Assembly: GCA_020630915.1 (NCBI GenBank) | Contig: JAHDIF010000007.1 | Coordinates: 1-64,000, forward strand | DNA from: Dokdonia sp. | GTDB taxonomy: Bacteria > Bacteroidota > Bacteroidia > Flavobacteriales > Flavobacteriaceae | Direction: 5' to 3' | DNA: 64,000 bases | In this document: positions 3,307-62,208 of the stretch, piece after piece | How positions within the stretch are numbered: position 1 is the first letter of the stretch | How the letters are laid out: every line of letters begins with the position of its first letter | The notes under the pieces: generated by a model | Told to the model about the DNA's origin: nothing | Seen by the model: the letters and a program-made list of their open reading frames with translations, nothing else | Database searches by the model: none | Made by a program: the position numbers and the translations under genes

Positions 3307-3320
3307 GCTTTCGCGAAAGC
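3307..3320. repeat. GCTTTCGCGAAAGC palindrome, intergenic copy
   Basis: Perfect 14-bp palindrome between the heptamer array and the DUF1599 gene. No T-run follows, so it is not a simple intrinsic terminator. Confidence 0.95.
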
Positions 3321-3449
3321 GAACCTAAAGAAATCATACCCAAAAGATAGCGCTCAGCGACAAAGCACAAAACCACGCTCAAAAACTTAAACTTCAATTT
3401 TTAATACTCAACATTTTAAGCGAAATTTACACAAATTGAATTCGGTTTT

Positions 3450-3989
3450 ATGAGTAATACTTCTGAGCAGTACGATGCTATTATAAAAAAATGTAGAGAT
3501 CTCTTTATCAACAAGATGAAGGATTATGGAAGTGCCTGGCGCATTCTTAGATTACCATCTCTTACGGACCAAATTTTCATAAAAGCCCAGCGCATACGCG
3601 GTTTGCAACAAAATGCAGTTCAAAAAGTAGATGAAGGTCAAGTATCAGAATTCATTGGTATTATTAACTATTGTGCGATGGCATTAGTGCAGCTAGAAAA
3701 GGGCATTGTGGAACAACCTGACCTTACTCTAGAAGAGGCTATCGTTTTATATGATTCAAAAATAGCAACTACCAAGTCCCTCATGATGGACAAAAATCAC
3801 GATTATGGTGAAGCCTGGAGGGATATGCGTGTAAGCTCTCTAACAGACCTTATCTTACAAAAGTTATTGCGTGTTAAGCAAATAGAAGACAACCAAGGAA
3901 AAACCCTCGTATCAGAAGGAATAGACGCAAACTACCAAGATATGATTAACTATGCCATATTTGCACTCATACATCTGGGTGAATCCTAA
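3450..3989 (+). CDS. DUF1599 domain protein (two tandem repeats)
   Basis: The 179-residue cytosolic protein consists of two homologous halves. Residues ~13-55 contain KMKDYGSAWRILRLPSLTDQI and residues ~103-150 contain KNHDYGEAWRDMRVSSLTDLI. The shared D-Y-G-x-A-W-R and SLTD motifs are the hallmark of DUF1599. The biochemical function is not established; a nucleotide-related role has been suggested for related families. In Bacteroidota the gene commonly sits between folP and a BT_3928-type DoxX gene, exactly as here (14 bases upstream of the next gene). ATG 3450 is the only plausible start. Confidence 0.9.
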   Translation: MSNTSEQYDAIIKKCRDLFINKMKDYGSAWRILRLPSLTDQIFIKAQRIRGLQQNAVQKVDEGQVSEFIGIINYCAMALVQLEKGIVEQPDLTLEEAIVLYDSKIATTKSLMMDKNHDYGEAWRDMRVSSLTDLILQKLLRVKQIEDNQGKTLVSEGIDANYQDMINYAIFALIHLGES

Positions 3990-4003
3990 AACGAATAGTA
4001 TCT

Positions 4004-5788
4004 ATGAAAATTCTTGTTCAAATAGCCCGCTTTTTTGTAGGTGTTCTTTTTATTTTTAGTGGTTTCATTAAGCTCAATGATCCGCTTGGATTTTCGTATA
4101 AATTGCAAGAATATTTTGCACCAGAAGTGCTCGATCTAGAATTTTTATCTCCCTATGCCCTGCTCCTTTCTATTGTTTTAGTAATTGTAGAAATCTTATT
4201 GGGAATTGCTCTTTTACTAGGCCATGCAAAAAAATTGGCCTTATGGCTGCTCCTGCTTATGATTGCCTTTTTTACGTTTCTTACGTTTTATTCGGCATAT
4301 TTCAATAAGGTTACAGATTGCGGCTGTTTTGGTGATGCTATCCCTCTGGTCCCTTGGGAGTCCTTTGCAAAGGATGTGGTCCTGTTGGTACTTATCCTCT
4401 TTTTGTTTTGGAAAAGGGAGTATATCAATCCCGCTTTCGCGAAATCGAGTTTGGGAGATTCACGACTATCAGGAGAGCGCAGCGGTAAAGCGCACCGCTC
4501 CATCATTATTTTTATAGCATTTATCGCTTGTATGGGATTTGGATATTACGTGCTTATGCATCTTCCTTGGTTAGATTTTAGAGCCTATAAAGAAGGGTCT
4601 AACATTACAGAAAATATGATCATTCCAGATGATGCGCCTCAAGCAGTGTTTGAGTACGACTGGAAGTTTTTAGTAAACGGAGAGGAGAAAATAATTACTA
4701 CAGCTGGTGGATATCCCGAGGTAGATGGGAAGTTTATAGATTATGAAACGCGCCAGGTATCTGAAGGGTACGAACCGCCAGTGCATGACTTTACTATAGA
4801 AAGAAATGGAGAAGATTATACATCCACTTTTTTAGAAAAAGAAAATGTTATTGTCGTGGTCGCATATAATTTAGACAAAACGGAAACCGAAGCTTATTAC
4901 AATATAAGAAAGGCTACAGAAGAAGCCATACGCAAAGGATACAGTGTTATTGGACTTACTTCCTCTTCCCAAGAAATCAATGAAGCTTTTACACGAGATT
5001 ACAAATTGCCCTTTAAATTTTACTTTACAGACGAGACAGCTCTAAAGACCATTATTAGAGCAAATCCTGGGATTATGAGTTTAGATAAAGGAACCATACT
5101 ACAAAAGCTGCACTGGAACGATGCTCAAAATTTAGAACTAAAAGAGTTAGCTACGGCAAGACCTAAATTAAATTTTGAATTAAAACATACTCTTGACAGT
5201 ATTGCGGTTTTAGACCAAAAATACCGTAAGTTAATGCAAGTTCCAGAAGGAGAAGAAAGAGCTGCTCTGGGGAAAGAAATGGGTTTAAGCCCCGCAGATT
5301 ACTCTGGAGATTTATGGGAGAAACAAACAGCATTAGACACAACCAATGTACAATTTATAGAACGCGTATTTAGAGAATATGGTTATCCGGGAAAAACCCT
5401 TGTGGGCGAGCCTACCAATCAGGCAGCTTGGTTTGTGATACAACACTCTAACAAAATTTCTGATTACCTGGACTTAATGAAAGACGCGGGTAAGAAAGAT
5501 GAAATTCCCTTTAGTATGGTAGCTATGATGGAAGACCGCTACCTCATGTCTCAAGAAAAAGAACAGATATACGGCACTCAAGGAATGAAATACGGAGATG
5601 CGCCTGCATTTATATGGCCTATTAAAAATGCAGCTCAAGTTAATGAGCGTCGTAGAGATGCAGGATTTAGTATGGATGTAGAAGAATATGCACAGCGACT
5701 TTTTGGTGAAAATTTTATCTATACAGAAATATCTCTCGAAGAAGCCCAAAAAAGAAAACAAAACTCCTTTATACTTCCAGGCTCTTGA
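4004..5788 (+). CDS. DoxX-family membrane protein (BT_3928-type) with repeat-derived insertion
   Basis: 594 residues. The first ~140 form a DoxX-like bundle of about four membrane helices (opening ARFFVGVLFIFSGFIKLNDP, later a TDCGCFGD motif after helix 3). Another helix lies at ~167-187, followed by a large soluble domain, presumably periplasmic. The family is widespread in Bacteroidota in this gene order; a redox or quinone-linked role is only inferred from DoxX and from the nearby thioredoxin-like gene. The linker before the last helix (AFAKSSL to ERSGKA, DNA 4433-4491) matches a segment of the ABC-F protein encoded at 54560 and derives from a mobile-type repeat. The stop overlaps the next gene by four bases. 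Confidence 0.85.
   Translation: MKILVQIARFFVGVLFIFSGFIKLNDPLGFSYKLQEYFAPEVLDLEFLSPYALLLSIVLVIVEILLGIALLLGHAKKLALWLLLLMIAFFTFLTFYSAYFNKVTDCGCFGDAIPLVPWESFAKDVVLLVLILFLFWKREYINPAFAKSSLGDSRLSGERSGKAHRSIIIFIAFIACMGFGYYVLMHLPWLDFRAYKEGSNITENMIIPDDAPQAVFEYDWKFLVNGEEKIITTAGGYPEVDGKFIDYETRQVSEGYEPPVHDFTIERNGEDYTSTFLEKENVIVVVAYNLDKTETEAYYNIRKATEEAIRKGYSVIGLTSSSQEINEAFTRDYKLPFKFYFTDETALKTIIRANPGIMSLDKGTILQKLHWNDAQNLELKELATARPKLNFELKHTLDSIAVLDQKYRKLMQVPEGEERAALGKEMGLSPADYSGDLWEKQTALDTTNVQFIERVFREYGYPGKTLVGEPTNQAAWFVIQHSNKISDYLDLMKDAGKKDEIPFSMVAMMEDRYLMSQEKEQIYGTQGMKYGDAPAFIWPIKNAAQVNERRRDAGFSMDVEEYAQRLFGENFIYTEISLEEAQKRKQNSFILPGS
4433..4491 (+). repeat. 59-bp palindrome-containing element, copy A, in frame in the DoxX-family gene
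   Basis: Begins with GCTTTCGCGAAATC and ends with GCGGTAAAGC; the terminal GCTTT and AAAGC are complementary. It aligns without gaps to 56147-56205 (52 of 59 bases identical by hand, the last 21 all identical). Both copies are translated in the same frame, giving AFAKSSL-x-DSRL-x-GERSGKA. It encodes a linker, so insertion would be tolerated. Confidence 0.9.
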
Positions 5789-8197: not shown

Positions 8198-8692
8198 ATG
8201 AAAGCTTATTTATTATCAATACTCCTAGCAGGTTTTTGTTTTTCATGCAAAGCCCAAACTATAAGTAATACAGACACTAACAGAGATGGATCTCTAGCAC
8301 TTTTTGACAATAATAAAGAAAACAAAAGTGTTTATGTCACCCGTAAGGGTAATGTAGGGATTGGACTTAAAAACCCTAAAGATCGCTTAGAGGTAAACGG
8401 TCAGATACACGCGCGATCGGTTAAAATAGATGTGAAGGACTGGGCAGATTTTGTTTTTAAAGAAGGATATGACTTACCACGCTTACGCGAAATTGAAGCT
8501 TACATAAAAAAAGAAGGCCATTTACCCAACATTCCGAGCACCCAAGATGCTACAAAAAACGGTGTACAAGTAGGAGAAATGCAAAAGCTACTTCTTCAAA
8601 AAGTAGAAGAACTAACCCTCTATCTCATCCAGCAAGATAAAGAGATAAAGGCTCTTAAAGAAGAAATTATTCTTTTAAAGAAAAAGGAATAG
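8198..8692 (+). CDS. Secreted protein with tail-fibre-like C-terminal region and coiled coil
   Basis: 164 residues: a signal peptide (MKAYLLSILLAGFCFSCKAQ; possibly lipidated at Cys17), a short beta-rich part with KGNVGIGLKNPKDRLEVNGQIHA (~50-70), a middle segment ending LREIEAYIKKEGHLPNIPS, and a heptad-rich C-terminal coiled coil (~130-164, VEELTLYLIQQDKEIKALKEEI). The GIGxxxPxxxLxVNG motif followed by a terminal coiled coil is common in Bacteroidota extracellular proteins annotated as tail-fibre or cell-wall-anchor like. It lies directly upstream of, and nearly touches, the subtilase gene. Its function is unknown. Confidence 0.75.
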   Translation: MKAYLLSILLAGFCFSCKAQTISNTDTNRDGSLALFDNNKENKSVYVTRKGNVGIGLKNPKDRLEVNGQIHARSVKIDVKDWADFVFKEGYDLPRLREIEAYIKKEGHLPNIPSTQDATKNGVQVGEMQKLLLQKVEELTLYLIQQDKEIKALKEEIILLKKKE

Positions 8693-11184: not shown

Positions 11185-11198
11185 GCTTTCGCGAAAGC
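11185..11198. repeat. GCTTTCGCGAAAGC palindrome, intergenic copy
   Basis: Perfect copy in the 55-base prmA-clpS spacer, followed by an A-run (ATAAAAAACC) rather than a T-run on the plus strand. Confidence 0.95.
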
Positions 11199-12883: not shown

Positions 12884-12897
12884 GCTTTCGCGTAAGC
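12884..12897. repeat. Variant palindrome GCTTTCGCGTAAGC, intergenic
   Basis: One-base variant of the 14-bp palindrome (A to T at position 10), directly after the sucC terminator. The same GCTTACGCGAAA variant, in either orientation, recurs at about 8481, 28432, 30003 and 62782. Confidence 0.85.
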
Positions 12898-16133: not shown

Positions 16134-17147
16134 TTAGGATAGAACTTCTCCCCATATTACTTTTAAAACGGCCCAATCAAAACTTTCTGCTTTCTTTCTT
16201 CCATTTTCAGAAAGCGTTGCACACAATTGCGGTTCTTTGAGCAACCTTACCACAGAGTTACAAAAGAGCTCTATCTCATTTGCAGGCGTTAGTAAACCAT
16301 CTTTCTCGTGCGTTATTAAAAATGGGAGCCCTCCTACATTTGTAGAAATGACTGGCAAGCCAAGAGCCATTGCCTCAATAACGCTTACTGGTGCATTGTC
16401 AAAATTTGTGGTATTTATAAAAATATCGTGATCATTTGCTATTGATCGCCAAGCTTCTTTAGATAGCATTCCCGTAAAAATTACTGGTAAGTCGTTTGCT
16501 TTCGCGAAAGCAAGACACTCCTTATAACTCTCATCCTTCTCCGGACCAACCATAGTGAGAGAAGCTTTGGGATATGTATTTGTTAGATTTTTCAAAACCT
16601 TTAATGCCATTAAAGGATTATAAATTTTAGAAAAAGAACGAACCCAAAGAAGCCTTGGAGCTACTACACTGCGCTTTTTAAAGGTGTATTGTGCAGTTTC
16701 TATCGTATTTGGAATGTAGGTTATATTATCAATTCCCACACTTTTAAATGCATCAATAATGTATTGTGAAGGCGCAATATTAATCTTCGCATTCGTAAAC
16801 AAACGCTTTGAAGTTTTATGGCTTTTTTTAATGCGGTTAGGTAAGTCTCCACCTCTCAATATGGGGATGTAGGGAAGTTTTAATAATCTGCATACATACC
16901 CCACAATCACTGCATACCAAAAATTACTCGTACTATAGGTATCAATTAGTACAATATCTGTCTGCCGGGCATACCGAATTGTATGCCACATCATATCTAG
17001 CATACGCAGCATCTTATTAGGTTGGCTTGAGGCTATCCGTACTTGATAGCCCTCATTTTTTAATAACTCACTTAATATTTCTACACTTGTAACTGTAGAT
17101 CCTTTACGAGATAATGCGTTTCCTATGTATAGGAGTCTTTTTTTCAT
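16134..17147 (-). CDS. GT4-type glycosyltransferase
   Basis: 337 residues, GT-B fold. N-terminal domain MKKRLLYIGNALSRKGSTVTSVEILSELL, then the C-terminal nucleotide-sugar domain (~180 onward) with RLLWVRSFSKIYNPLMALKVL, VIFTGML and the retaining E-x7-E signature in PVSVIEAMALGLPVISTNVGG. It adds a sugar to a lipid-linked glycan at the cytosolic membrane face; donor and acceptor are unknown. It overlaps the upstream O-antigen polymerase-like gene by 44 bases. A palindrome copy (16498-16511) is read as AFAKA in CLAFAKAND. Confidence 0.9.
   Translation of the reverse strand: MKKRLLYIGNALSRKGSTVTSVEILSELLKNEGYQVRIASSQPNKMLRMLDMMWHTIRYARQTDIVLIDTYSTSNFWYAVIVGYVCRLLKLPYIPILRGGDLPNRIKKSHKTSKRLFTNAKINIAPSQYIIDAFKSVGIDNITYIPNTIETAQYTFKKRSVVAPRLLWVRSFSKIYNPLMALKVLKNLTNTYPKASLTMVGPEKDESYKECLAFAKANDLPVIFTGMLSKEAWRSIANDHDIFINTTNFDNAPVSVIEAMALGLPVISTNVGGLPFLITHEKDGLLTPANEIELFCNSVVRLLKEPQLCATLSENGRKKAESFDWAVLKVIWGEVLS
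16498..16511. repeat. GCTTTCGCGAAAGC palindrome, coding copy (AFAKA frame)
   Basis: Perfect copy inside the GT4 gene at 16134-17147. Confidence 0.95.
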
Positions 17148-18462: not shown

Positions 18463-19528
18463 GGTTTCTATAAATTCTTAAAATATCTTCTTGAACTCTT
18501 TGAAGGGCATAACGTTCTTTCACCCTTGTTTTAAATTTTGCTCCTAACTCGCCTCGAACTCTCTCATTTTTAAGTAGATTAAGTATCGCATTTTTCATAG
18601 CAGGCACATCATTAGACGCGACCACTAGACCACCATCACCTATTACCTCTTCACATTGCCCAACATTCGTACTTACAACAGCAAGTCCAGCTCTTCCATA
18701 TTCTAACAAAGACATAGGCAAGCCTTCTGATGACGATGCAATAACACCAATACTACATTCATTAAGATAGCTATCTGGGTTTGATTGTCCTCCGTGAATA
18801 AAGATATGATTTATTAATGCACGGCTTTCAATAAACTTCTTGAGTTTTCTACTATACTCGTCATTAAAGTCATTCCCTACCAAATGGAGTGTTGCATCTG
18901 GGACACTTGCAATCACCTGCTCAAAAGCATTACATAAAAAAAGGTGATTCTTAGGGCCCCTGAGATTTGCTAGATATATCACTCGTTTGTTTCTATTACC
19001 CGCTAGAATGGGTTTGATGTTTTTTTTGCTTTCGCGAAAGCTAACAAAATTAGGCACGTACTCCACTACTCTTGTATTAAGTGACTGTACTGCCCACTTT
19101 TTAAGGTCATTATTTACGGTAAATATGCAATCAAAATATCTAGAACATAACTTCAATACTCGCAATTTTAAACCTTTAAGTTGTACGCTCGCTCCGTGAT
19201 GATTATGCCATATTAGTTTTAAATTAGAACACCGCATCTTCACTAAAGTGGCTAAAAAGTACGAAGTCCCGTGCGCGTGTACATGTGTAATAGATTCCTT
19301 TTTAATAAATTGTGTTAATACTCGGATAGCTCTCATATCTAGAGATTTCTTTTTCTCTAAAAATAGATAAGACACCTCTTTAGACAGTGTCTCTTTTAAT
19401 ACCCCTTCTTCTCGTGTCGCACATACATAGGAACCCTCAATCTCCCTAGCAAGCATATTTGCATACGTAACGGCTACACGCTCTGCACCGCCTATATGAA
19501 GACTATCTATGAGTTGTAGTACTTTCAT
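18446..19528 (-). CDS. GT4-type glycosyltransferase
   Basis: 360 residues, GT-B fold: MKVLQLIDSLHIGGAERVAVTYANML at the N-terminus (the GGAERV loop is typical of GT4), RVIYLANLRGPKNHLFLCNAF at the start of the second domain (~185), and the E-x7-E region SEGLPMSLLEYGRAGLAVVSTNVG. It starts at ATG 19528, overlapping the stop of the next upstream gene by one base. The palindrome at 19028-19041 encodes SFRES in FVSFRESKKN. Sugar specificity is unknown. Confidence 0.92.
   Translation of the reverse strand: MKVLQLIDSLHIGGAERVAVTYANMLAREIEGSYVCATREEGVLKETLSKEVSYLFLEKKKSLDMRAIRVLTQFIKKESITHVHAHGTSYFLATLVKMRCSNLKLIWHNHHGASVQLKGLKLRVLKLCSRYFDCIFTVNNDLKKWAVQSLNTRVVEYVPNFVSFRESKKNIKPILAGNRNKRVIYLANLRGPKNHLFLCNAFEQVIASVPDATLHLVGNDFNDEYSRKLKKFIESRALINHIFIHGGQSNPDSYLNECSIGVIASSSEGLPMSLLEYGRAGLAVVSTNVGQCEEVIGDGGLVVASNDVPAMKNAILNLLKNERVRGELGAKFKTRVKERYALQRVQEDILRIYRNLVENK
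19028..19041. repeat. GCTTTCGCGAAAGC palindrome, coding copy (FRES frame)
   Basis: Perfect copy inside the GT4 gene at 18446-19528. Confidence 0.95.
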
Positions 19529-20619
19529 TACAATAATGCTTGAATTTCGGTTTCAAAATTTTCTAAGGTATAATTTTGTGACCAATTTTGCGATTCCGAA
19601 CTCAAAGCGTTGTAATGTTTTTGTTCTTTAACAATCTCTATAATTTTTGATACATCTTCTTCAAGATCTAGCTTTAGAAAAAGACCGCGGCTTTCATTTC
19701 CTAACATCCAAGGGACACATGAAATAGCCGTTACTAAAGGCACTGCACCATAAAACATGCCTTCTGCCACAACCTTGGGCCAACCTTCTGACTTAGAAGG
19801 CAGGACAATAAAATGAGTCTTCTTATAAGCCGCTACTACCTTATCTGCAGGTTGATTGCCGTAAAATGTTACAAATTCACCCGAAGTCGTCTCCAGCTCT
19901 TTTCTTAAAATTCCATCTCCATAGATCTCTAATGTTGCTCTATATCCTTTGGTATTGATCGATTTTACCAGATCAATAGCATATTCGGGTCGTTTGCCTT
20001 GCACAAGACTCCCGACAAAAACAAAATTTATAGGAGTCGCAATACTCTTAGTAATACTTTCTCTATATGCTTCAGGATATGAAGCAGTAAAAAATGGCTT
20101 TATATTTTTAGTCATACCTGGCCACTCACCGTATACTAATACTTGCATATTTTTAGTAAGTAGGGTATTACTCAATATCCACTTTTGAAACTTATAACTC
20201 AGTGGTTGCTTGGAACTGGGGTCCCAATTTCCTGCGTATTTGGCTGTTTTCTTTTTCCGTGGAAACAGTATCTGTACGAGACATCCCAATAGCCCAATAT
20301 TTCCTGGGCATCGCAAATGTATATGATCTGCTTCTTGCATTGCACGAAATATGATATAGCAAATCCAAGGTAATTTAAAAAGGGAACTCAAGCTTTCGCG
20401 AAAGCTTACAAAAGACAACCCATATACTTCTTTAAGTGTAATCTCTTTTGTGTACTTCCAATGTATCTCCGACTTTTCCCTTTTTGCCAAAGGAGCGACT
20501 ACAATAACCTCATCTGAATATTTGGTCCATAAATTCATTTCACGCACGTAGGGACCATACGCATACTGATCTTTCTGCTGCTCCCAATGCGGTGTATGTG
20601 TAATAATGACTAGTTTCAT
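19528..20619 (-). CDS. GT4-type glycosyltransferase
   Basis: 363 residues. The N-terminal half (MKLVIITHTPHWEQQKDQYAYGPYVREM) has the tyrosine-rich loop seen in some GT4 enzymes of exopolysaccharide loci. The C-terminal half contains NFVFVGSLVQGKRPEYAIDLV (~200) and KSEGWPKVVAEGMFYGAVPLVTAISCVP, where Glu-x7-Glu is recognisable but altered. It overlaps the next gene upstream by four bases and abuts the one downstream. The palindrome at 20392-20405 encodes SFRES. Donor and acceptor are unknown. Confidence 0.88.
   Translation of the reverse strand: MKLVIITHTPHWEQQKDQYAYGPYVREMNLWTKYSDEVIVVAPLAKREKSEIHWKYTKEITLKEVYGLSFVSFRESLSSLFKLPWICYIIFRAMQEADHIHLRCPGNIGLLGCLVQILFPRKKKTAKYAGNWDPSSKQPLSYKFQKWILSNTLLTKNMQVLVYGEWPGMTKNIKPFFTASYPEAYRESITKSIATPINFVFVGSLVQGKRPEYAIDLVKSINTKGYRATLEIYGDGILRKELETTSGEFVTFYGNQPADKVVAAYKKTHFIVLPSKSEGWPKVVAEGMFYGAVPLVTAISCVPWMLGNESRGLFLKLDLEEDVSKIIEIVKEQKHYNALSSESQNWSQNYTLENFETEIQALL
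20392..20405. repeat. GCTTTCGCGAAAGC palindrome, coding copy (FRES frame)
   Basis: Perfect copy within the glycosyltransferase gene at 19528-20619. Confidence 0.95.
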
Positions 20620-21614: not shown

Positions 21615-23143
21615 TGCTCTCTCAGATAATTAGCCCATTTTACAGAAGTATTCCATTGTTGTTTAAAGACTTTTCTATAGCTCAATTTTTGAACTAAAGG
21701 TACGCGTTTAAGCTGTCTTAAAAAGAGCCTTAATTTATAGCCTTGCAGTTGCTTCTTGGTGGTATGCGTTAATCGGTACAGCATTACTGTGGGAGAAGGT
21801 TTTGGTTTTTCTTCCCTTTTTTCCCATTCTTTTACTACTATCTTTCGGAAGCCACCCACAGGGGCTTTAAGATGCACCAATGCTACTTCTGGATGGTATA
21901 TCACATCAGCCCCTTCATTGCGTAGTTGCATGCCGTAGTCTGTATCTTCTCCATAACCGTGTTCATATGCGGTATTGAAATTAAGCTTTCGCGAAAGCGT
22001 GCCAGACACAATCGCTGCTCCAGATGGAAAACTGCTCCATTGTATGATTTTTGTAAACGTTTGTTGTTCTCCTTTCTGAAGGCAACTCATAGCAATACAC
22101 TGGACTCCTAATTCTTGTATAGCATTGAGACCTTTTTGTAGCAATCCTGCTTCAAACCTAATATCATCATCTGCAAAAAACACCCAATCTGCCGTCGTAT
22201 GACTCAGTGCAATATTGCGAGCATTACAGGCACCTGTTTGATGTATAAACTTATGAATTATCTGAAATGGCCAACTTTCTTCAGTTAGAAAGTCTAATTC
22301 AGAAATACTATCTATATCTGCATTTTGCTCCACAATAATTACTTTTTGTGGAAGATGTGTTTGTTTTGACAAGTCGTGTAATACATCTAGTAAATACGAC
22401 GCTCTTCCCATTGTAGGAATGATAACATCTATACTTGGAATGGTATTATGAACAGTTTCTGTAACCAATGGTGCTTGATACACATATTCTTTTTTCGATA
22501 CAAAAAAACTTGATAGTAATGCTCCTACTGGCCATTTTTTTTCAAAATAAGCCTGACATATGAATAAGAAAAACACCCATTGGAACTTATAATGTTGTTT
22601 TACAAAACGGTATAAAGAATACGTATTCCCCTTATACGTATCGTCACTATCTAATTTTTGAATTGTATCCGTCCATAAGGGAGCTTGATAACAGAAAAGC
22701 CCTTGAGATTGAAAAGACTTTGCGATAGCATTTAACACGTAGCCCGCTTCTTCTCCTTCAAAATCTTCTTTTCTAAGGGTATTTATAACTTGCGCCTGCA
22801 CACCTCCAGCATCTGTACTCATAAGCCAGGTAGGATATGGCACGTTACGATGTATCTTCATAAAAGGACTTTCTTCTATATAGTGAATTGCACTATCTAG
22901 ATACGATGAAGATCTTTGGGAAGCGCTCACCATTACATTCTTATTTTCTAAAATGGTGGTAAGTTTTAGATGGTCTAATGCACCCTTGAAACGGGTTTCG
23001 TACCATACGATGGAAGACGAAGGATATGCCAGTGCAACATCAAATAGAGCCGTAGTCATTGAACCTGTTATAGAATCAATAGTGACACCATCCTCAGCTA
23101 TAATAGTATCTATAACTCCATTTGTGTGATATAATACTATCAT
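21611..23143 (-). CDS. GT2-family glycosyltransferase with an extra N-terminal domain
   Basis: 510 residues, well above the ~300 of a simple GT2. Residues ~1-235 form a separate region (MIVLYHTNGVIDTIIAEDG, SSSIVWYETRFKGAL) that I cannot assign. The GT-A domain begins at ~240 with IDVIIPTMGRASYLLDVL, has WVFFADDDIRFE as its DxD motif and YEHGYGEDTDYGMQLRNEG as the acceptor/base motif. The palindrome at 21985-21998 is read as LSRK. It overlaps both neighbours by four bases. The N-terminal region may position an acceptor or carry a second activity. Confidence 0.85.
   Translation of the reverse strand: MIVLYHTNGVIDTIIAEDGVTIDSITGSMTTALFDVALAYPSSSIVWYETRFKGALDHLKLTTILENKNVMVSASQRSSSYLDSAIHYIEESPFMKIHRNVPYPTWLMSTDAGGVQAQVINTLRKEDFEGEEAGYVLNAIAKSFQSQGLFCYQAPLWTDTIQKLDSDDTYKGNTYSLYRFVKQHYKFQWVFFLFICQAYFEKKWPVGALLSSFFVSKKEYVYQAPLVTETVHNTIPSIDVIIPTMGRASYLLDVLHDLSKQTHLPQKVIIVEQNADIDSISELDFLTEESWPFQIIHKFIHQTGACNARNIALSHTTADWVFFADDDIRFEAGLLQKGLNAIQELGVQCIAMSCLQKGEQQTFTKIIQWSSFPSGAAIVSGTLSRKLNFNTAYEHGYGEDTDYGMQLRNEGADVIYHPEVALVHLKAPVGGFRKIVVKEWEKREEKPKPSPTVMLYRLTHTTKKQLQGYKLRLFLRQLKRVPLVQKLSYRKVFKQQWNTSVKWANYLREQ
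21985..21998. repeat. GCTTTCGCGAAAGC palindrome, coding copy (SRK frame)
   Basis: Perfect copy inside the long GT2 gene, read as LSRK in TLSRKLNF. Confidence 0.95.
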
Positions 23144-31064: not shown

Positions 31065-32218
31065 TAATACGTAATTGTTTTATGAAAGGTAAGATCACAG
31101 GAAGCAAGTACCTGGGCAATCTTTTGTCCAGCCTCTCCATCTCCATAAATACTAGTGCCTGTAATCTCCGAATTTTCGATTTGCTGCAAAACCGCGTTAC
31201 GAATAGCTTCTTTATTATAGTCTACATCAATCACATTATCACCGCGTTCTCTTCCGTTTTGACGTGTTCCTATATTCACCACAGGAACTCCTAGGTAAGC
31301 ACATTCTCGTATCCCTACACTACTATTTCCTATCAAGCATTTTGCGTTTGCAAGTAACTTTAAAAAGTCAGTAGGTTCCATATTCTTAAAGAAACGTATG
31401 TTGGGTGGGTTTACGCTTTCGCGAAAGCTACGTATCCCATTACTAGTACCATCGGAACCTGCATCTACATTGGGCCAAAACCAGAAAGTAGGCAGCCCTA
31501 ACTCATGAACTATTTCCAAAGTTTTTTGTACATCTTCCTTGGCTCTAGCATATTCTGTAGTAACTGGGTGTTGCATAACGACAAGGTACTCTTGAGAAGT
31601 ATCTATATCTGCCCCTACGCCCCCATATTTTTCTACAGGATCAAAATCAAGTGCTGGGGTTTCTCTTACTTCTTTGGCAATATCAATAGAAGGGCATCCT
31701 GTGTTAAAAACCTTTGTGGGATTCTCACCTAACTTTATAACACGCTCACGTGCGTTCTCACTTGCAACGAGATGTATATCTGCTAGTTTTGTATTTGCAT
31801 GTCGTACTTTTTCATCAATATTGCCCGTAACCTCACCTCCTTGTATATGAATTAGAGGAATGTTTTGGTAGGATGCCGCAATAGAAGTAGCAATAGTTTC
31901 AAATCGATCTGCGATAGTAACCACCATATCTGGTTGTAACTTGTCAAAAACGGTAGCAAGTTCCATAACACCAAGTCCAGTGGTCTTTGCCATTGCAGTT
32001 TTGTTCTCTCCCTCTAGAACCATATAGACCTTCTCTGCTACTTTAAAACCATCCCTTTCAATATACGCCACAGCATTCCCATACCGCCCTAGTAAGGCAG
32101 CACCTGCAACTACTAATTGCAAGTCCAATTGAGGGTGAGCATCTATGGCTTTGAGAGCCGTTTTTATACGGCTATATGAAGGCCTCGCTGTGATAACTAC
32201 GCAGACTTTTCTGTGCAT
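31064..32218 (-). CDS. neuC: UDP-N-acetylglucosamine 2-epimerase (hydrolysing), NeuC-type
   Basis: 384 residues, GT-B-like epimerase fold. VCVVITARPSYSRIKTALKAI opens the protein, DMVVTIADRFETIATSIAA and HIQGGEVTGNIDEKVRHANTKLAD (~120-145) are characteristic of the hydrolysing sialic-acid branch, and LIGNSSVGIRECAYLGVPVVNIGTRQNGRER forms the UDP pocket. It makes ManNAc (or a relative) for NeuB. It lies one base from the methyltransferase gene. The palindrome at 31415-31428 encodes SFRES. Confidence 0.92.
   Translation of the reverse strand: MHRKVCVVITARPSYSRIKTALKAIDAHPQLDLQLVVAGAALLGRYGNAVAYIERDGFKVAEKVYMVLEGENKTAMAKTTGLGVMELATVFDKLQPDMVVTIADRFETIATSIAASYQNIPLIHIQGGEVTGNIDEKVRHANTKLADIHLVASENARERVIKLGENPTKVFNTGCPSIDIAKEVRETPALDFDPVEKYGGVGADIDTSQEYLVVMQHPVTTEYARAKEDVQKTLEIVHELGLPTFWFWPNVDAGSDGTSNGIRSFRESVNPPNIRFFKNMEPTDFLKLLANAKCLIGNSSVGIRECAYLGVPVVNIGTRQNGRERGDNVIDVDYNKEAIRNAVLQQIENSEITGTSIYGDGEAGQKIAQVLASCDLTFHKTITY
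31415..31428. repeat. GCTTTCGCGAAAGC palindrome, coding copy (FRES frame)
   Basis: Perfect copy within neuC. Confidence 0.95.
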
Positions 32219-40006: not shown

Positions 40007-40897
40007 CTATCGCAGTATTGACTTAAATTTACGAATCCAAGATACACTATTCGTTGATCTATTCTTAAAAAAAGCGTGTTCTTCTTCTACAAGTAAAGGG
40101 AATTTTATCACAACTCTATCGTATAGTTTTTTCTTCATAAATCGTATATACTCAGGACAAAAGACGGCCAAGCGCTTTTCAATCACTTTCCAGCTATTAA
40201 TTGCCGCAATTGCTTTCTCCTTTTGATCTATAGAGCTCACAGTTTGAGTGTTCTCAAGTCGATACCACACATGCACATCTGGCGCATAGACTATAGACGG
40301 GTTTCCTAAAAAGACTTGAGACATAAAATCTCCATCTTGATTAGTGCTTAAAGATTCGTCCCAAACAATCTTATGCATATTGAGGAAGCTTTTTGAGATT
40401 AGATAGGCGTGTATAGGTAAAAAACCAAACTTTTGTGAAAGTGCTTTTAAGAACTGCTTGCTTGTTTTAAAATCGCGATATACCTCTAGGTTTTCGTGCA
40501 GTACATTAGTTTTGGCCTCTTTGTAATAACCCCAAGCACAAGTTGCCATATCATTTTTAGCTACTGCCATTTGCTCTAGTTGGGCAGCCAGCTTCCTATC
40601 ACTTATTAAATCGTCACTATCGAGCCACTGTATATAGTTTCCTTTACTTTTAGAAAACCCATAATTCCTACAAGAATTAGCTCCTTTTATTTTTTCATCA
40701 GGCCTTTGAAGGAGTTGTATTCTTGAGTCCGCTTTCGCGAAAGCGGTAACCAACTCCTTGGTGTCATCAGTACTGCCATCATCTACCACAAGACACTCCC
40801 AAGCTTCAAAAGATTGACGCTGTACAGATTGCAATGTCTCACCTATACAATGCGATCGGTTATAACTAGGTATGATTATGGAGACTTCTGGTTTCAT
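40007..40897 (-). CDS. GT2-family glycosyltransferase
   Basis: 296 residues. MKPEVSIIIPSYNRSHCIGETLQSV opens the GT-A fold, CLVVDDGSTDDTKELVTAF and NYIQWLDSDDLISDRKL are the acidic motifs, and SLSTNQDGDFMSQVFLG includes the probable base region. The palindrome at 40731-40744 encodes AFAKA in VTAFAKADSRI, directly after the first acidic motif, so it lies on a surface helix. It overlaps the next upstream gene by four bases. Confidence 0.9.
   Translation of the reverse strand: MKPEVSIIIPSYNRSHCIGETLQSVQRQSFEAWECLVVDDGSTDDTKELVTAFAKADSRIQLLQRPDEKIKGANSCRNYGFSKSKGNYIQWLDSDDLISDRKLAAQLEQMAVAKNDMATCAWGYYKEAKTNVLHENLEVYRDFKTSKQFLKALSQKFGFLPIHAYLISKSFLNMHKIVWDESLSTNQDGDFMSQVFLGNPSIVYAPDVHVWYRLENTQTVSSIDQKEKAIAAINSWKVIEKRLAVFCPEYIRFMKKKLYDRVVIKFPLLVEEEHAFFKNRSTNSVSWIRKFKSILR
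40731..40744. repeat. GCTTTCGCGAAAGC palindrome, coding copy (AFAKA frame)
   Basis: Perfect copy in the GT2 gene at 40007-40897. Confidence 0.95.
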
Positions 40898-41823: not shown

Positions 41824-42694
41824 GTAATGTCCTTTTAATTTTAGCTTTCAGTTTCTTTTGAAGTGTATACCAGCGGTTGAATTTAGATTTTAATCTATGT
41901 TGTTCCCAAGGATGCAAGAGGTCTATAAACTCTTGATACAGTATCCTGTCATACTCCTCATAATCTGGTATAGACTGACTTCTGTTGACATTGGTAGCCT
42001 GATTAGGATGAATCCTAAATTTTACAAGTTTCTCTGGCAATATAGCAATAGGATATTTTTTTAAGACACGGTAGTAAAAAACATAGTCTAACACCTGTTT
42101 TAACCGTTCGTCAAAATAGCCTATCTCATCTAGAATTACTTTTCTAAAAAGGGTCGTAGGAGGCTCACCTATTTTATTGAGGGGTGATTTCATAAAATCA
42201 TCTCTTGCAAATAATGTTCTGTCTAGATGTAATATCTCGCCTTCATTGGAAAACTGACATTGTAAGTTTTTATATTGTTCTATCCAAGCATCTATGTGAG
42301 GATCACTTGTCTTCTCTGTAATAAAATCCCTTTTAGACGCTACGAGTCCATAGGTTTTATTTGTTTCCAAAAAAGAAACCATCTTCTCGATACAAAAGGG
42401 CTCCAAAATGTCGTCTTGAAAAAGAAATTTAATGTACGTCCCTTTTGAGTGTGTTAGCGTGTTATTCCAGTTTGCTCCTATTCCGGCTGGGGTATGTCGT
42501 ACTACATGTACTGGATACGGTACGCTTTCGCGAAAGCGTTGTAATAGTTCCCAGGTTCCATCTTTACTCGCATCATCGCTCACAATCACCTCCAGGTTAT
42601 TGTAGGTTTGATCCATTACAGAATCCAAGGCTTCCTGTAAAAAAGCGGCGCCGTTATAGGTAGGTATGCAGACTGATACTAGCGATTGCGTCAT
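41816..42694 (-). CDS. GT2-family glycosyltransferase
   Basis: 292 residues. VSVCIPTYNGAAFLQEALDSVMDQT begins the domain, VIVSDDASKDGTWELLQRF and YIKFLFQDDILEPFCIEKM are the acidic motifs (QDD in place of DSD). The palindrome at 42524-42537 encodes RFRES just after the first acidic motif, the same structural place as AFAKA in the GT2 gene at 40007. It overlaps the next genes by four and eight bases. It is the last gene with typical base composition before the AT-rich block. Confidence 0.9.
   Translation of the reverse strand: MTQSLVSVCIPTYNGAAFLQEALDSVMDQTYNNLEVIVSDDASKDGTWELLQRFRESVPYPVHVVRHTPAGIGANWNNTLTHSKGTYIKFLFQDDILEPFCIEKMVSFLETNKTYGLVASKRDFITEKTSDPHIDAWIEQYKNLQCQFSNEGEILHLDRTLFARDDFMKSPLNKIGEPPTTLFRKVILDEIGYFDERLKQVLDYVFYYRVLKKYPIAILPEKLVKFRIHPNQATNVNRSQSIPDYEEYDRILYQEFIDLLHPWEQHRLKSKFNRWYTLQKKLKAKIKRTLRG
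42524..42537. repeat. GCTTTCGCGAAAGC palindrome, coding copy (FRES frame)
   Basis: Perfect copy in the GT2 gene at 41816-42694. It is the last copy before an 8.3-kb stretch without the motif. Confidence 0.95.
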
Positions 42695-50304: not shown

Positions 50305-51135
50305 TTAAGAAGCGGCTTTATACGATGTAGGAAAGGCTTTTTCTAGCTGGCTGGCTACTTCTTTTACTTTTTCTGGAGTGGGTAAAGAAGGGAGTTGCTG
50401 TATAAGGTCTAAAAAATAGGCCTTTGATTGCATCTCGGTAATTAATGGACCATCATAAGGGTCTATCCCTACAGACAAAAAATAATCTGCATACTTGGTA
50501 TTGTCACCACTTAACTTATCAGAAAATTGCACCCATATGGCAGGAATACCATAAGCGTGTGCCACGATTACCCCGTGTAAAGAGGAGCTTATAATGGCCT
50601 TACACGACAGTATTTGATCTGTAGTGGCAAAAAAATCATGGGTCATTAAATCTATAACAGGCAAGTGATCATCATAGGCTTTTTGCGCTTTTTTATAATC
50701 TACATAATGTGGTATTATCCCTACATCGTGGGTTTTCTGCACCTCTGGGCTGTATAAATTAGGTAATAACAACGCAGGATCTCCATATACTTCAGGGCAA
50801 GAATGGCCTAGTTCTAGAATACGCTTTCGCGAAAGCGGGCCTCGCACAGCACAATACGTTGCAGCACCTGGAGTATCTACTTGAGAGATAATACCACTTC
50901 CCCACACCGTAGCCTTATCTGTTGCATATTGCAAAATACTACCTATAGCCATCATATATGACTTCTTAAAAAATTGCTTGCGAGAGGCTGGCGCATTGTA
51001 AAAAATAGCTTCTTTGCCACTTATCTTAGACACTATGTATACAGAAAGAATGTCGCCATAGTTTTCTTTTGCCTTTTTTTCAAAGACTTTAGAAGACCAA
51101 TAAAACAATCGTATTTTTTGAGACATACTATGCAC
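50305..51135 (-). CDS. Polysaccharide pyruvyl transferase family protein
   Basis: 276 residues. NYGDILSVYIVSKISG, YMMAIGSILQYATDKATVWGSGII, CAVRGPLSRKRILELG, VYGDPALLLPNLY, GIIPHYVDYKKA and ISSSLHGVIVAHAYGIPAIWVQF (~195-215) follow the order seen in the CsaB/WcaK family, which adds ketal-linked pyruvate from PEP to sugars or acts as a related transferase. The palindrome at 50823-50836 encodes LSRK within the conserved RGPLSxKRI stretch. It lies 16 bases from the Wzc gene. Confidence 0.85.
   Translation of the reverse strand: MHSMSQKIRLFYWSSKVFEKKAKENYGDILSVYIVSKISGKEAIFYNAPASRKQFFKKSYMMAIGSILQYATDKATVWGSGIISQVDTPGAATYCAVRGPLSRKRILELGHSCPEVYGDPALLLPNLYSPEVQKTHDVGIIPHYVDYKKAQKAYDDHLPVIDLMTHDFFATTDQILSCKAIISSSLHGVIVAHAYGIPAIWVQFSDKLSGDNTKYADYFLSVGIDPYDGPLITEMQSKAYFLDLIQQLPSLPTPEKVKEVASQLEKAFPTSYKAAS
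50823..50836. repeat. GCTTTCGCGAAAGC palindrome, coding copy (SRK frame)
   Basis: Perfect copy within the pyruvyl-transferase-like gene. It is the first copy after the AT-rich block. Confidence 0.95.
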
Positions 51136-54559: not shown

Positions 54560-56497
54560 TTGAATTATCTCTCAGTAGAAAATGTGGCAAAGTCCTTTGG
54601 AGAACGTGTATTGTTTGACACTATCTCCTTTGGTATCAATAAAGACCAAAAAATAGGTTTTGTAGCAAAAAATGGTTCCGGCAAGACCTCATTACTACAT
54701 ATTATCGCTGGGCTAGATATCCCAGATACAGGGCAAGTAATCTCGAGAAAAGAAATTACAATTTCATTCCTGCCCCAAGAGCCTAATCTGGATCCTTCAC
54801 TCTCTGTAGAAGAAACCATTTTTGCAAGTGACAATAGCACTCTTAAGATCATTGAGAATTATGAGAAGGCATTGCTTGATATGGAGGACCAAGATGCCTA
54901 TCAAAAAGCATTTGAGGCCATGGACGCCGCACAAGCTTGGGACTTTGAGACACAATACAAACAGATACTCTTTAAGCTTAAGCTGGACGATCTCAACAGA
55001 AAGGTAGCCATGCTCAGTGGAGGACAGAAAAAGAGACTCGCGCTTGCCGTTCTACTGCTGAGTAAACCAGATCTTGTTATTCTAGATGAGCCCACTAACC
55101 ACTTAGATCTTGAAATGATTGAGTGGCTGGAAGAGTATTTTAAGAAAGAAAATCTTACGCTTTTTATGGTCACACACGATCGTTACTTTTTAGAAAATGT
55201 GTGCAATGAGATTGTAGAGCTTGAAGATGGTGTTTTATATACGTACAAAGGAAATTATGCCTACTATCTAGAAAATAAAGAAGCGAGACGCGCCTCAGAA
55301 GCCGCCGAACTTGCAAAAACAAAGCAACTCTATAAAAAGGAATTAGACTGGATGCGCCGCCAGCCTAAAGCGCGTACCACAAAATCCAAATCCCGTATTG
55401 ACGATTTTTATAAAATAAAAGAAGCCGCTCACAAAAGAAGATTAGAACACGAAGTACAACTAGAAATAAATATGGAACGTTTAGGAGGGAAAATCCTTGA
55501 GTTCCACAAAGTGAGTAAAGCCTTTAATAATCTTACACTACTAGATAATTTTGAGTACGTATTTAAAACAGGAGAACGTATAGGAATCATAGGAAAAAAT
55601 GGTACTGGAAAAACCACTTTTCTCAATGTGATGACGGGAGCTATCCCTCCAGATAGTGGAAAAGTGATTGTAGGAGACACGGTAAAATTTGGATACTACA
55701 CACAGTCTGGGATACAAGAAAAAAAGGGCCAGAAGGTTATAGATGTTATTAAAGAATTTGGCGATTTTATACCGCTTAAAAAAGGACGAATCATCTCTGC
55801 GGGGCAGCTTCTAGAGCGCTTCTTATTTGACGGAAAAAAACAGCACGACTATGTAGAAAAACTAAGCGGAGGAGAGCGCAAACGTCTTTATTTATGTACC
55901 GTCTTTATCCAAAATCCTAATTTTCTCATTCTGGATGAACCCACAAATGATCTCGATGTAGTAACTCTTAATGTCCTGGAAAGTTTTCTTTTAGATTTCC
56001 CTGGGTGTTTATTAGTCGTATCCCATGACCGCTATTTTATGGATAAGATTGTAGACCACTTATTCGTTTTTAAAGGAGATGGGGTAATTGAAAATTTTCC
56101 AGGTAATTACAGTGATTTTAGAGCCTATGAAGGTGGTATTCATAACGCTTTCGCGAAATCAAGCCTGCAAGATTCACGACTACTAGGAGAGCGCAGCGGT
56201 AAAGCAAAACAAGAACAACAAAAAGAAGCACCTCAAGAAACTAAGGAAAAGGTAAGCTGGAAAGAAAAACAGCACTCAGGAAACCTCTCGTATCAAGAGC
56301 AAAAAGAACACGCCAAATTGGAACGTGATATTGCCAAGCTAGAACGTGAGAAAAGTGAAAAGGAGAAAATCTTCTTGGACCCTTCCTTAACCCAAGAGCA
56401 AATCACCAAAGAATCTGCCCAGCTGCAATTAATCATTAGCCAACTTGAAGAAAAAGAAGAGCGCTGGTTTGAACTATCATCAAAATTAGAAGGATAA
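54560..56497 (+). CDS. ABC-F family ATPase (Uup-like) with repeat-derived insertion
   Basis: 645 residues from TTG 54560. Two ABC domains in tandem: Walker A VAKNGSGKTSLL (~36) and GIIGKNGTGKTTFL (~348), signatures LSGGQKKRLALAV and LSGGERKRLYLCT, Walker B LVILDEPTNHLDL and FLILDEPTNDLDV. An arm/linker with RRQPKARTTKSKSRIDDF lies between them and a coiled coil (~575-645) follows. There is no membrane domain, so it acts as a ribosome- or DNA-associated ABC-F protein in the cytosol. Between domain 2 and the coiled coil sits AFAKSSL-x-DSRL-x-GERSGKA, the same repeat-encoded peptide as in the DoxX-family protein at 4004. Confidence 0.92.
   Translation: MNYLSVENVAKSFGERVLFDTISFGINKDQKIGFVAKNGSGKTSLLHIIAGLDIPDTGQVISRKEITISFLPQEPNLDPSLSVEETIFASDNSTLKIIENYEKALLDMEDQDAYQKAFEAMDAAQAWDFETQYKQILFKLKLDDLNRKVAMLSGGQKKRLALAVLLLSKPDLVILDEPTNHLDLEMIEWLEEYFKKENLTLFMVTHDRYFLENVCNEIVELEDGVLYTYKGNYAYYLENKEARRASEAAELAKTKQLYKKELDWMRRQPKARTTKSKSRIDDFYKIKEAAHKRRLEHEVQLEINMERLGGKILEFHKVSKAFNNLTLLDNFEYVFKTGERIGIIGKNGTGKTTFLNVMTGAIPPDSGKVIVGDTVKFGYYTQSGIQEKKGQKVIDVIKEFGDFIPLKKGRIISAGQLLERFLFDGKKQHDYVEKLSGGERKRLYLCTVFIQNPNFLILDEPTNDLDVVTLNVLESFLLDFPGCLLVVSHDRYFMDKIVDHLFVFKGDGVIENFPGNYSDFRAYEGGIHNAFAKSSLQDSRLLGERSGKAKQEQQKEAPQETKEKVSWKEKQHSGNLSYQEQKEHAKLERDIAKLEREKSEKEKIFLDPSLTQEQITKESAQLQLIISQLEEKEERWFELSSKLEG
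56147..56205 (+). repeat. 59-bp palindrome-containing element, copy B, in frame in the ABC-F gene
   Basis: Same length, orientation relative to the gene, and reading frame as copy A at 4433-4491; the seven differences cluster at positions 15-24 and 37-38 of the element. It falls in the linker before the C-terminal coiled coil. Confidence 0.9.
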
Positions 56498-59318: not shown

Positions 59319-59329
59319 TTATTATTCGA

Positions 59330-61302: not shown

Positions 61303-61479
61303 ATGGACTTTTTTGATTCACTTTCTCCTACCACGCAAATCTTTGTAATATTTATAGGTCTTGCCGTTTTATTTTTGGCCGTATTTTCCAATAACAAAAA
61401 AAACAAAGGAAAACTATACGACAGAAAACGTAGGAGTTTTAGGGATAACTATTACACTCGTAAGAAAGATAAAGAATAA
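61303..61479 (+). CDS. Small single-helix membrane protein (58 residues)
   Basis: ATG 61303 to TAA 61479. A hydrophobic segment TQIFVIFIGLAVLFLAVF (~11-28) is followed by a highly basic tail (KKNKGKLYDRKRRSFRD...YTRKKDKE), so by the positive-inside rule the tail is cytosolic. It sits between the pentapeptide-repeat and PduO-type genes in the same orientation. Codon pattern and topology are consistent with a real gene; no family is recognised. Confidence 0.6.
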   Translation: MDFFDSLSPTTQIFVIFIGLAVLFLAVFSNNKKNKGKLYDRKRRSFRDNYYTRKKDKE

Positions 61480-61583
61480 TGAAACTCTGAAACTTTCTCT
61501 CTAAAATTGAGAAAACATAATAACTATCGTGAGTGTGTGGATGAGGTTTCCACCCCTGTTTACCAATAGGCAGGTTCGCAGAA

Positions 61584-62171
61584 ATGAAAAAGAAGACAAT
61601 GAAAGTATACACAAAAACAGGGGATAAAGGAACGACAGCCCTCTTTGGAGGAACTCGTGTCCCTAAGCATCATATACGAATAGATAGCTATGGAACTGTA
61701 GATGAGCTTAACTCCTACATAGGCTTAATTCGTGATCAAGAGATAGATCCAAGGAGTAAAGAAATACTTATCCATATTCAAGATAGACTATTTACCGTAG
61801 GTGCCGTTCTGGCTACGGACCCAGAAAAAGCGACACTCAAAAACGGTAAAGATCGTTTAAATATCCCTCGAGTAGATGAAGAAGACATTACCCTTCTTGA
61901 AACCGAAATGGATACTATGGATGCCGCCCTACCCCTTATGACACACTTTGTACTTCCTGGAGGACACACCACCGTGTCATATTGTCACATCGCTCGTACC
62001 GTATGCAGGCGAGCAGAGCGTCTCGCCTCTGCGCTTATGGAGTTAGAACCATTTGACCCTCACACCCTCACCTACCTTAACAGACTTTCTGACTACCTTT
62101 TTGTACTGGCACGGAAGTTGTCCTTAGACTTGCAAGCAGACGAGATCAAATGGATCCCGAAAAAATTATAA
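61584..62171 (+). CDS. Cob(I)yrinic acid a,c-diamide adenosyltransferase (PduO type)
   Basis: 195 residues. Transfers adenosyl from ATP to Co(I) corrinoid to make adenosylcobalamin. The ATP-binding start YTKTGDKGTTALFGGTRVPKHHIRIDSYGTVDELNSYIGL is the PduO signature. HFVLPGGHTTVSYCHIARTVCRRAERLASAL (~128-160) holds the conserved R-x-x-C-R-R-x-E-R motif, and LNRLSDYLFVLARKL closes the family pattern. ATG 61584 and ATG 61599 are both possible starts; the second fits homologue length better. No cobalamin riboswitch is seen upstream. Confidence 0.93.
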   Translation: MKKKTMKVYTKTGDKGTTALFGGTRVPKHHIRIDSYGTVDELNSYIGLIRDQEIDPRSKEILIHIQDRLFTVGAVLATDPEKATLKNGKDRLNIPRVDEEDITLLETEMDTMDAALPLMTHFVLPGGHTTVSYCHIARTVCRRAERLASALMELEPFDPHTLTYLNRLSDYLFVLARKLSLDLQADEIKWIPKKL

Positions 62172-62194
62172 TATCAAGAATACCCTGCTATACC

Positions 62195-62208
62195 GCTTTC
62201 GCGAAAGC
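62195..62208. repeat. GCTTTCGCGAAAGC palindrome, intergenic copy
   Basis: Perfect copy 24 bases after the PduO-type stop; no T-run follows. Confidence 0.95.

Follow-up and report, generated by a model that had tools for sequence, protein, structure and literature searches.

A regularly spaced palindrome in Dokdonia and two further lineages of Flavobacteriaceae, possibly a self-DNA signal

Introduction

Why does a bacterial genome carry one and the same palindrome again and again, within genes as well as between them? The question arises from a 64,000-nucleotide stretch of Dokdonia sp. (Flavobacteriaceae; GenBank assembly GCA_020630915.1, contig JAHDIF010000007.1, positions 1 to 64,000 of the forward strand), referred to here as the window, which has a guanine-plus-cytosine (GC) content of 36.9% and contains the perfect palindrome TTTCGCGAAA (the core) 16 times. 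In 100 dinucleotide shuffles of the window the core occurred 0.11 times on average and at most twice. Of the 16 sites, 13 match the longer 14-mer GCTTTCGCGAAAGC completely, the other three having an intact core only (Table 1), and with up to three mismatches allowed this 14-mer is found 27 times, against a shuffle mean of 1.83. Thirteen of the sites lie within open reading frames (ORFs), where they are translated in all three phases, as AFAK, FRES or LSRK/FSRK. An initial annotation, made from the letters of the window alone, had listed the 16 sites, their readings in genes and several variants, had put the number expected by chance at well under one, and had regarded them as a palindrome selected as DNA and not as protein, similar to the highly iterated palindrome HIP1 of cyanobacteria. 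All of the sites, with their readings, were recovered here together with the variants, among them three of the GCTTACGCGAAA type and two in the opposite orientation, and the view of an iterated palindrome kept as DNA is supported by what follows.

Distribution among genomes

The window is typical of its genome and no outlier, since the whole genome (2,967,236 bases in 18 contigs) holds 821 core sites, or 277 per Mb, in contrast to 15 copies of the reversed word used as control. The over-representation thus extends to the genome-wide count, by which the initial annotation had proposed to judge the element. Enrichment was found in all 18 genomes of Dokdonia (g1), with 481-1195 core sites each and 9-23 in the controls, in 23 of 23 searched genomes of a second genus, g11 (319-893 sites), and in the single genome found for a third, g191 (G207). 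A survey of 299 genomes from 236 genera of the family disclosed enrichment only in representatives of these three, namely G000 and G003 (g1), G027 and G258 (g11) and G207; the remaining 294 contain 0-34 core sites each. Among 395 genomes of the class, G000 alone was enriched and the others had 0-30 sites. Samples of three enriched genomes differ in GC content (37% in G004, 46% in G207 and 34% in G258), which shows that the word is no product of base composition.

In a tree of sucC, which represents one gene and does not recover Dokdonia itself as a single clade, g11 is placed apart from Dokdonia, beside Kordia and on a long branch, and g191 falls into the same large unresolved group as Dokdonia. 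Among 80 titled sucC loci the 14-mer is present only in two of Dokdonia, and a locus of Christiangramia contains one core site. The motif is 122- to 657-fold enriched in the Dokdonia loci listed; in the 80 named loci, which are 3-21 kb long, all other 10-base palindromes stay within three copies and 43-fold enrichment.

Confinement to g1, g11 and g191 is not absolute, given that imperfect copies are in excess elsewhere. With up to two mismatches the 14-mer occurs 74 times in Leeuwenhoekiella aestuarii (G317; control 10), 86 times in G161 (20), 69 times in G059 (8) and 20 times in its congener G279 (6), 39 times in G068 (7), and 41 and 38 times in two genomes of g77 (5 and 15). G093 and G303 likewise show a weak but clear surplus of imperfect copies over the reversed control. 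The imperfect copies in these weakly enriched genera could be the remains of sites that decayed after loss of the system, or imported DNA.

Clusters of sites were observed in addition in two genomes otherwise poor in the motif. Seven of the 12 core sites of the non-enriched genome G029 lie within 100 kb of one contig (C18, 74-174 kb), which also contains a 616-codon frame with a ParB_N domain at 76 kb and a methyltransferase match at 19 kb; this cluster is probably an element imported from a motif-bearing host. In G118 six exact 14-mers form two clusters with gaps of a few kb on contig C1 (about 2.37-2.48 Mb and 436.6-437.5 kb), and these too look like imported DNA.

Structure of the palindrome

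The anatomy of the element was studied mainly in an 800-kb sample of G004, corresponding to 24% of its complete genome of 3,389,993 bases. The sample contains 236 core sites, in contrast to 0.76 expected from a second-order Markov model, and no other 10-base palindrome with at least eight copies is enriched more than 4.4-fold. The conserved element is larger than the 10-base core: it has a 16-base core, CGCTTTCGCGAAAGCG, the consensus TTACGCTTTCGCGAAAGCGTAA, and a weaker symmetric preference, which in G004 and G258 extends to about 25 bases on either side of the centre and in G207 is weak. The flanks are poor in C on the 5' side and poor in G on the 3' side, with T at position -17 reaching a frequency of 0.77 in G258. 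Conservation of the 10-base core in this site model follows from its construction, as it was built from sites with an intact core. Of the 16-mer, the G004 sample has 115, 57, 40 and 43 copies with 0, 1, 2 and 3 mismatches, against 0, 0, 0 and 6 in the reversed sequence.

The recognised unit is mainly the full palindrome, since short cores outside full sites are near expectation. Outside core sites G004 contains TTCGCGAA 5 times (4.8 expected), TCGCGA 70 times (48), CGCG 719 times (917) and the half-site CGCTTTCG 8 times (4.6). The exceptions are TTCGCGAA in G207, with 27 copies against 7.2 expected, and CGCTTTCG in G258, with 7 against 1.5; some of these surplus copies may be degenerate full sites.

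There is no covariation between the outer symmetric positions. At position -1, 167 pairs are complementary where 174.6 are expected, and among the eight outer symmetric pairs a single one shows an excess of complementary letters (111 vs 100). A small counter-indication comes from 16-mers with two mismatches, in which the mismatches form a symmetric pair in 6 of 40 cases against 2.7 expected, all of them at the outermost and most variable base. Base pairing within one strand is therefore unlikely to be what is kept, and a hairpin, a cruciform or a terminator was rejected as an explanation; the T-rich side, moreover, is the 5' one, whereas in an intrinsic terminator the T-rich stretch follows the palindrome. 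The largely independent variation of the two halves is expected of a site for a dimeric protein.

A separate observation concerns locus L137 of G015 (positions 70-90), in which a 21-base near-palindrome, CCTGCCTCGCCGGCAGGCAGG, is inserted within a motif copy; in the related locus L127 this copy is uninterrupted. The right part of the insert, CCGGCAGGCAGG, has no further copy in the DNA counted. A comparable case, in which a repeat module has been inserted into HIP1, is mentioned for cyanobacteria (PMC4390886).

Maintenance as DNA

In DNA of G004 and G005 that aligns with 86-90% identity, taken from 4 of 12 planned blocks, 33 of 34 sites are exactly kept, compared with 482 of 1144 (42%) 10-mers located 35-150 bases away (binomial probability 8e-12). 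In 254 comparisons of coding orthologues of 50-80% identity, from 16 Dokdonia loci, all 14 bases are kept in 74; one base deviates in 7, three to four in 5 and at least five in 149, and 19 are gapped or not covered at the site. Since the comparisons are ordered and related to each other, these counts describe a pattern and do not constitute a test. In comparisons lacking the exact site, identity is 36% for the motif codons and 61% for control codons, which indicates that the sites sit where the protein is variable and that the DNA word dictates the residues. The palindrome is very probably kept as DNA, as a double-stranded site for a protein of two-fold symmetry, i.e. a dimer.

Spacing and genomic position

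The sites are spaced more evenly than chance would place them. When sites were scattered at random within the same coding and non-coding classes, the coefficient of variation (CV) of the gaps was 0.989 for G004, 0.912 for G207 and 1.02 for G258; the observed values are 0.595, 0.638 and 0.65, and in none of the three samples did any of 1000 simulations attain the evenness of the real sites. The window alone gives a CV of 0.573 vs 0.972, with 11 of 1000 simulations as even. Gaps below 1 kb number 14 in G004, 3 in G207 and 0 in G258, against 62.5, 13.4 and 13.3 expected. Very short and very long gaps are both rare, and the intervals are about 3-5 kb. A bias between origin and terminus of replication, which the initial annotation had suggested as a check, was not seen: the number of sites in 20 blocks of G004, each of 40 kb, varies between 7 and 16 and shows no trend.

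The gene calls were based on the length of ORFs without annotation, so that the division into coding and intergenic sites varies by a few. The density per kb is 1.56 between genes and 0.165 within ORFs in G004 (9.4-fold), and 0.76 and 0.11 in G258 (7-fold). Within the intergenic DNA of G004 it amounts to 2.53 between convergent genes, 1.38 between tandem and 1.47 between divergent ones. The earlier description of the sites as lying mostly inside genes therefore holds for the window (13 of 16) and for G207 (75 of 81) and fails for G004, in which about half are intragenic (117-120 of 236) and the DNA between genes is about 10-fold denser in sites. In the window the preponderance of coding sites reflects a packed polysaccharide operon and is a local matter.

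The intergenic excess in G004 and G258 is what dispersed copies of a small mobile palindrome, of the repetitive extragenic palindromic (REP) or REPIN kind, would show. Such an origin, which the initial annotation had considered in the form of a mobile-element remnant, is nevertheless hardly credible. Coding sites occur in all three frames, and about half of the G004 sites are within ORFs. The orthologues without the exact site run through its position free of gaps in 161 of 180 comparisons, the other 19 being those gapped or not covered, and the copies avoid each other's neighbourhood. Nucleotide alignments at the sites (mostly 65-75% identity) contain many gaps and are not diagnostic for insertion.

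Occurrence in phages

The 16-mer was found in 41 stretches from 30 contigs of a viral collection. Analysis was restricted to 22 contigs; the eight left out have one core site each in the piece at hand and a GC content of 48-67%. At least two core sites are present in 19 of the 22, at 1.0-2.7 per 10 kb except for one 2-kb piece, a density close to that in host ORFs, in a set picked for holding a site and including several near-copies. From eight of the contigs 30 proteins were scanned, and in six contigs they have named phage functions, including portal, major head protein, terminase, sheath, tape measure and endolysin; the two others yielded one family of unknown function and no match, respectively. 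One motif-bearing contig encodes a transposition protein and another an integrase with a repressor-like protein, and on the basis of these genes both phages are probably temperate. In one phage family, 11 of 20 loci have 1-3 sites, and multiple sites within a locus are separated by 4.3-6.5 kb; the head proteins of these 11 loci are at least 62% identical to the query. The other nine loci, with head proteins 44-47% identical, have none, and neither do two cultured relatives that infect Cellulophaga and Winogradskyella. For comparison, Haemophilus phage HP1 contains the 9-base uptake sequence 17 times within 32.4 kb, so that presence on temperate phages is equally compatible with an uptake sequence and with an intracellular site.

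Phage carriage, the suppression of both short and long gaps and the 481-1195 sites per Dokdonia genome are also compatible with a site that acts on broken or supercoiled DNA, either as a Chi-like stop for a processive nuclease or as a strong topoisomerase site, for which one copy every few kb would be enough. Chi sites resemble the palindrome in their frequency, of the order of one per few kb, and in their presence on phages. They are read by RecBCD or AddAB and are 5-8 bases long, asymmetric and biased in orientation, unlike the 16-base palindrome, which by its symmetry has no orientation. The half-site counts in G004, near expectation outside core sites, also speak against such a function, the surplus in G258 being the exception. 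To our knowledge, moreover, Chi-type nucleases and topoisomerases are near-universal, and yet motif enrichment is lacking in 294 of the 299 family genomes. We regard this explanation as improbable.

Search for the reader protein

Protein families were compared between 15 enriched genomes, 12 of them Dokdonia, and 15 control genomes. The initial annotation had named a methyltransferase target among the possible roles, in the manner of HIP1, for which an orphan methyltransferase has been proposed. In cyanobacteria HIP1 is almost coextensive with GATC methyltransferases (PMC4390886), and the slight excess of TCGCGA outside core sites in G004 points in the same direction. Of the two families searched, however, the C5 methyltransferases (PF00145) are present in fewer of the enriched genomes (6 of 15) than of the controls (9 of 15), and N6/N4 methyltransferases (PF01555) exceed the cut-off in 2 of 15 enriched genomes and in none of the 12 Dokdonia. 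Neither is conserved in the enriched genomes, and a methyltransferase of these families was rejected as the reader. In G004 and G258, neither CGCG nor TTCGCGAA exceeds its expected number outside core sites, the surplus of TTCGCGAA in G207 standing apart, and a methylation target is thus very improbable. One 700-codon open frame with two C5 methyltransferase domains was noted in G005 (C1:2994546-2996633).

Canonical ParB is encoded in all 30 genomes. When these proteins are aligned, no column sets those of the 15 enriched genomes apart from those of the 15 controls, for which reason a ParB of changed specificity was rejected. A second ParB_N match is confined to G002, G013, G029, G047 and G161, two of which are enriched. 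The sites of ParB (parS) and of Noc are similar to the palindrome in length (14-16 bases) and in their TTTC...GAAA arms; they differ from it in that the palindrome occurs at 277 sites per Mb without bias towards origin or terminus, next to a housekeeping ParB without distinguishing columns.

These results bear on the possibility that a dimeric protein restricted to these lineages binds the chromosome every 3-5 kb and compacts, insulates or otherwise organises resident DNA, phages in such hosts acquiring the site for this same reason. The two-fold symmetry with largely independent halves and the symmetric preference extending to about 25 bases in G004 and G258 suit such a protein, as do the even spacing on host DNA and in the phage family with sites 4.3-6.5 kb apart, the peak density in convergent intergenic DNA and the exact retention of 33 of 34 sites. 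The sites of Noc, SlmA and MatP follow an origin-to-terminus pattern or are excluded from the terminus, and neither is apparent in the G004 sample. G004 DNA without an aligned counterpart in the portion of G005 used is poorer in sites than the aligned DNA (8 in 48 kb vs 34 in 112 kb, although a 24.6-kb unaligned stretch may simply fall outside that portion), which means that site-poor DNA is tolerated. No candidate protein was found in the families and DNA searched. We consider an architectural role less probable than the uptake-type signal discussed below, but a close rival to it.

The reader was also sought among proteins of unusually high identity between the lineages in the sampled DNA. 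The top-ranked proteins look like housekeeping proteins by their first residues. Three viral proteins of motif-bearing phages have matches in the host, none of them a candidate reader.

An uptake-type signal

Uptake sequences are the closest known kind of element in terms of copy number, even spacing, non-coding excess (in two of three lineages here) and carriage by HP1, and we therefore favour, tentatively and with somewhat less than even confidence, the interpretation of the palindrome as a self-DNA signal of the uptake type that is read by a dimeric protein. Known uptake sequences are present in hundreds of copies, with significantly even spacing and an excess in non-coding DNA (PMC1939737). 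Together with phage carriage and the competent relatives described in print, the even spacing slightly favours uptake over a site for a nucleoid or segregation protein.

In this model the palindrome would have the role that uptake signal sequences play in Haemophilus and Neisseria, its reader being a putative surface or periplasmic receptor of the pilus-free natural transformation machinery of Flavobacteriia. DNA bearing the palindrome would be taken up preferentially and recombine, and in this way spread the sites. A second site within 1-2 kb would add nothing and a long site-free stretch would not be taken up, from which even spacing would result. Sites would accumulate where proteins and intergenic DNA tolerate them.

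Pili need not be involved in such a mechanism. Riemerella uses a transformation machine of its own kind and has no detectable pilus genes, so that missing pili do not exclude uptake, and homologues of the machine are widespread in the genera of Flavobacteriaceae searched by the authors (PMC8459023). R. columbina prefers its own DNA (PMC7965970).

Several points weigh against an uptake signal. The uptake sequences treated in PMC1939737 are not palindromes, and an early analysis cited in PMC2346458 found uptake sequences apparently random along the genome. In the R. columbina study the k-mers listed are all A/T-rich and at most 10 bases long, and their role in uptake is left open (PMC7965970). 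Competence is described for Riemerella, and the model would require it of Dokdonia, g11 and g191 as well. In G207 the density of sites between genes hardly exceeds that in ORFs (0.231 vs 0.201 per kb, 1.15-fold). The ATPase of pili and type II secretion systems (PF00437) exceeds the cut-off in only 6 of 15 enriched genomes, and in 1 of 15 controls; pilus-based uptake is hence not the common cause and was rejected. The pair of a DUF5689 protein and an outer-membrane protein named in Riemerella was not found in the sampled DNA: among eight candidate pairs, five proteins from three pairs were scanned and none was DUF5689, and the other five pairs resembled SusC/SusD. Nor did the sampled DNA and the families searched yield a receptor or any other cognate protein. 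The palindromic form of the word is thus a difficulty, and a protein acting inside the cell would explain most of the same facts.

The uptake signal sequences (USS) of Pasteurellaceae and DNA uptake sequences (DUS) of Neisseriaceae share with the palindrome hundreds of exact copies, even spacing, tolerance in coding DNA, occurrence in several species, an excess outside genes (here in two of three lineages) and carriage by a temperate phage (HP1). The flanks of the palindrome are T-rich, as are those of the USS. The element studied here differs in being palindromic, in its longer core, in its occurrence in Bacteroidota and in the absence of a pilus or type II secretion ATPase above the cut-off from 9 of the 15 enriched genomes. 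Since it thus lacks two features of uptake sequences, the non-palindromic word and the pilus-type machine, we do not file it among them. HIP1 (GCGATCGC) is likewise abundant, tolerated in genes and found throughout a lineage. It comprises 8 bases, in contrast to a 16-base core with flanks, and neither of the two methyltransferase families searched is conserved in the enriched genomes; the marked even spacing of the palindrome may be a further difference. The lists of top words for the window and for G004 do not include the HIP1 octamer.

A search of the open literature, which left subscription papers and preprints outside, disclosed no mention of GCTTTCGCGAAAGC and no report of the element; the 10 papers containing TTTCGCGAAA look unrelated, as judged by titles and the beginnings of abstracts. 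It is conceivable, if rather doubtful, that a protein of a few genera reads a symmetric element of about 50 bases every 3-5 kb on all replicating DNA, phages included, and overrules the amino-acid sequence, and that this constitutes a hitherto undescribed system of chromosome marking, be it for uptake or within the cell.

Sites in the window

The sites of the window are compiled in Table 1. Positions 14710-53608 are occupied by a long cluster for the biosynthesis of extracellular polysaccharide (EPS), part of whose ORFs were scanned, with sites inside its genes at normal density. EPS clusters are usually swapped between strains.

Table 1. Palindrome sites in the 64-kb window. Positions are those of the 14-mer, the 10-base core beginning 2 bases further on; signs in brackets give the strand of the ORF.
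Position	Site	Location and reading
3307..3320	exact 14-mer GCTTTCGCGAAAGC	intergenic
4433..4446	intact core, 14-mer with 1 mismatch	ORF 4004-5788 (+), AFAKS
11185..11198	exact 14-mer	intergenic, upstream of sucC (11633-12823)
16498..16511	exact 14-mer	ORF 16134-17147 (-), AFAKA
19028..19041	exact 14-mer	ORF 18446-19528 (-), FRES
20392..20405	exact 14-mer	ORF 19528-20619 (-), FRES
21985..21998	exact 14-mer	ORF 21611-23143 (-), LSRK
26111..26124	intact core, 14-mer with 1 mismatch	ORF 25236-26663 (-), FSRK
31415..31428	exact 14-mer	ORF 31064-32218 (-), FRES
33096..33109	exact 14-mer	ORF 32863-33864 (-), LSRK
37889..37902	exact 14-mer	ORF 36976-38226 (-), AFAKA
40731..40744	exact 14-mer	ORF 40007-40897 (-), AFAKA
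42524..42537	exact 14-mer	ORF 41816-42694 (-), FRES
50823..50836	exact 14-mer	ORF 50305-51135 (-), LSRK
56147..56160	intact core, 14-mer with 1 mismatch	ORF 54560-56497 (+), AFAKS
62195..62208	exact 14-mer	intergenic
2684..2697	degenerate, 2 mismatches	
8481..8494	degenerate, 3 mismatches, GCTTACGCGAAA type; singly could be chance	
12884..12897	degenerate, 1 core mismatch, GCTTACGCGAAA type in opposite orientation	
28432..28445	degenerate, 2 mismatches, GCTTACGCGAAA type	
30002..30015	degenerate, 3 mismatches, GCTTACGCGAAA type in opposite orientation; singly could be chance	
62782..62795	degenerate, 3 mismatches, GCTTACGCGAAA type; singly could be chance	

Significance

The clear phylogenetic contrast, with the motif in 18 of 18 and 23 of 23 genomes of two genera and without it in 294 of 299 genomes of the family, can be used to find the protein, and the evenly spaced copies may serve as a host marker for viral contigs. 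If the palindrome acts inside the cell, it would be a regularly spaced chromosomal element of 16-base specificity common to genera of 34-46% GC. If it is an uptake signal, no other is known to us from Bacteroidota, nor any other that is a palindrome; it would then offer access to the receptor used by Flavobacteriia in pilus-free competence, and could account for the preference for self-DNA seen in relatives such as Riemerella columbina.

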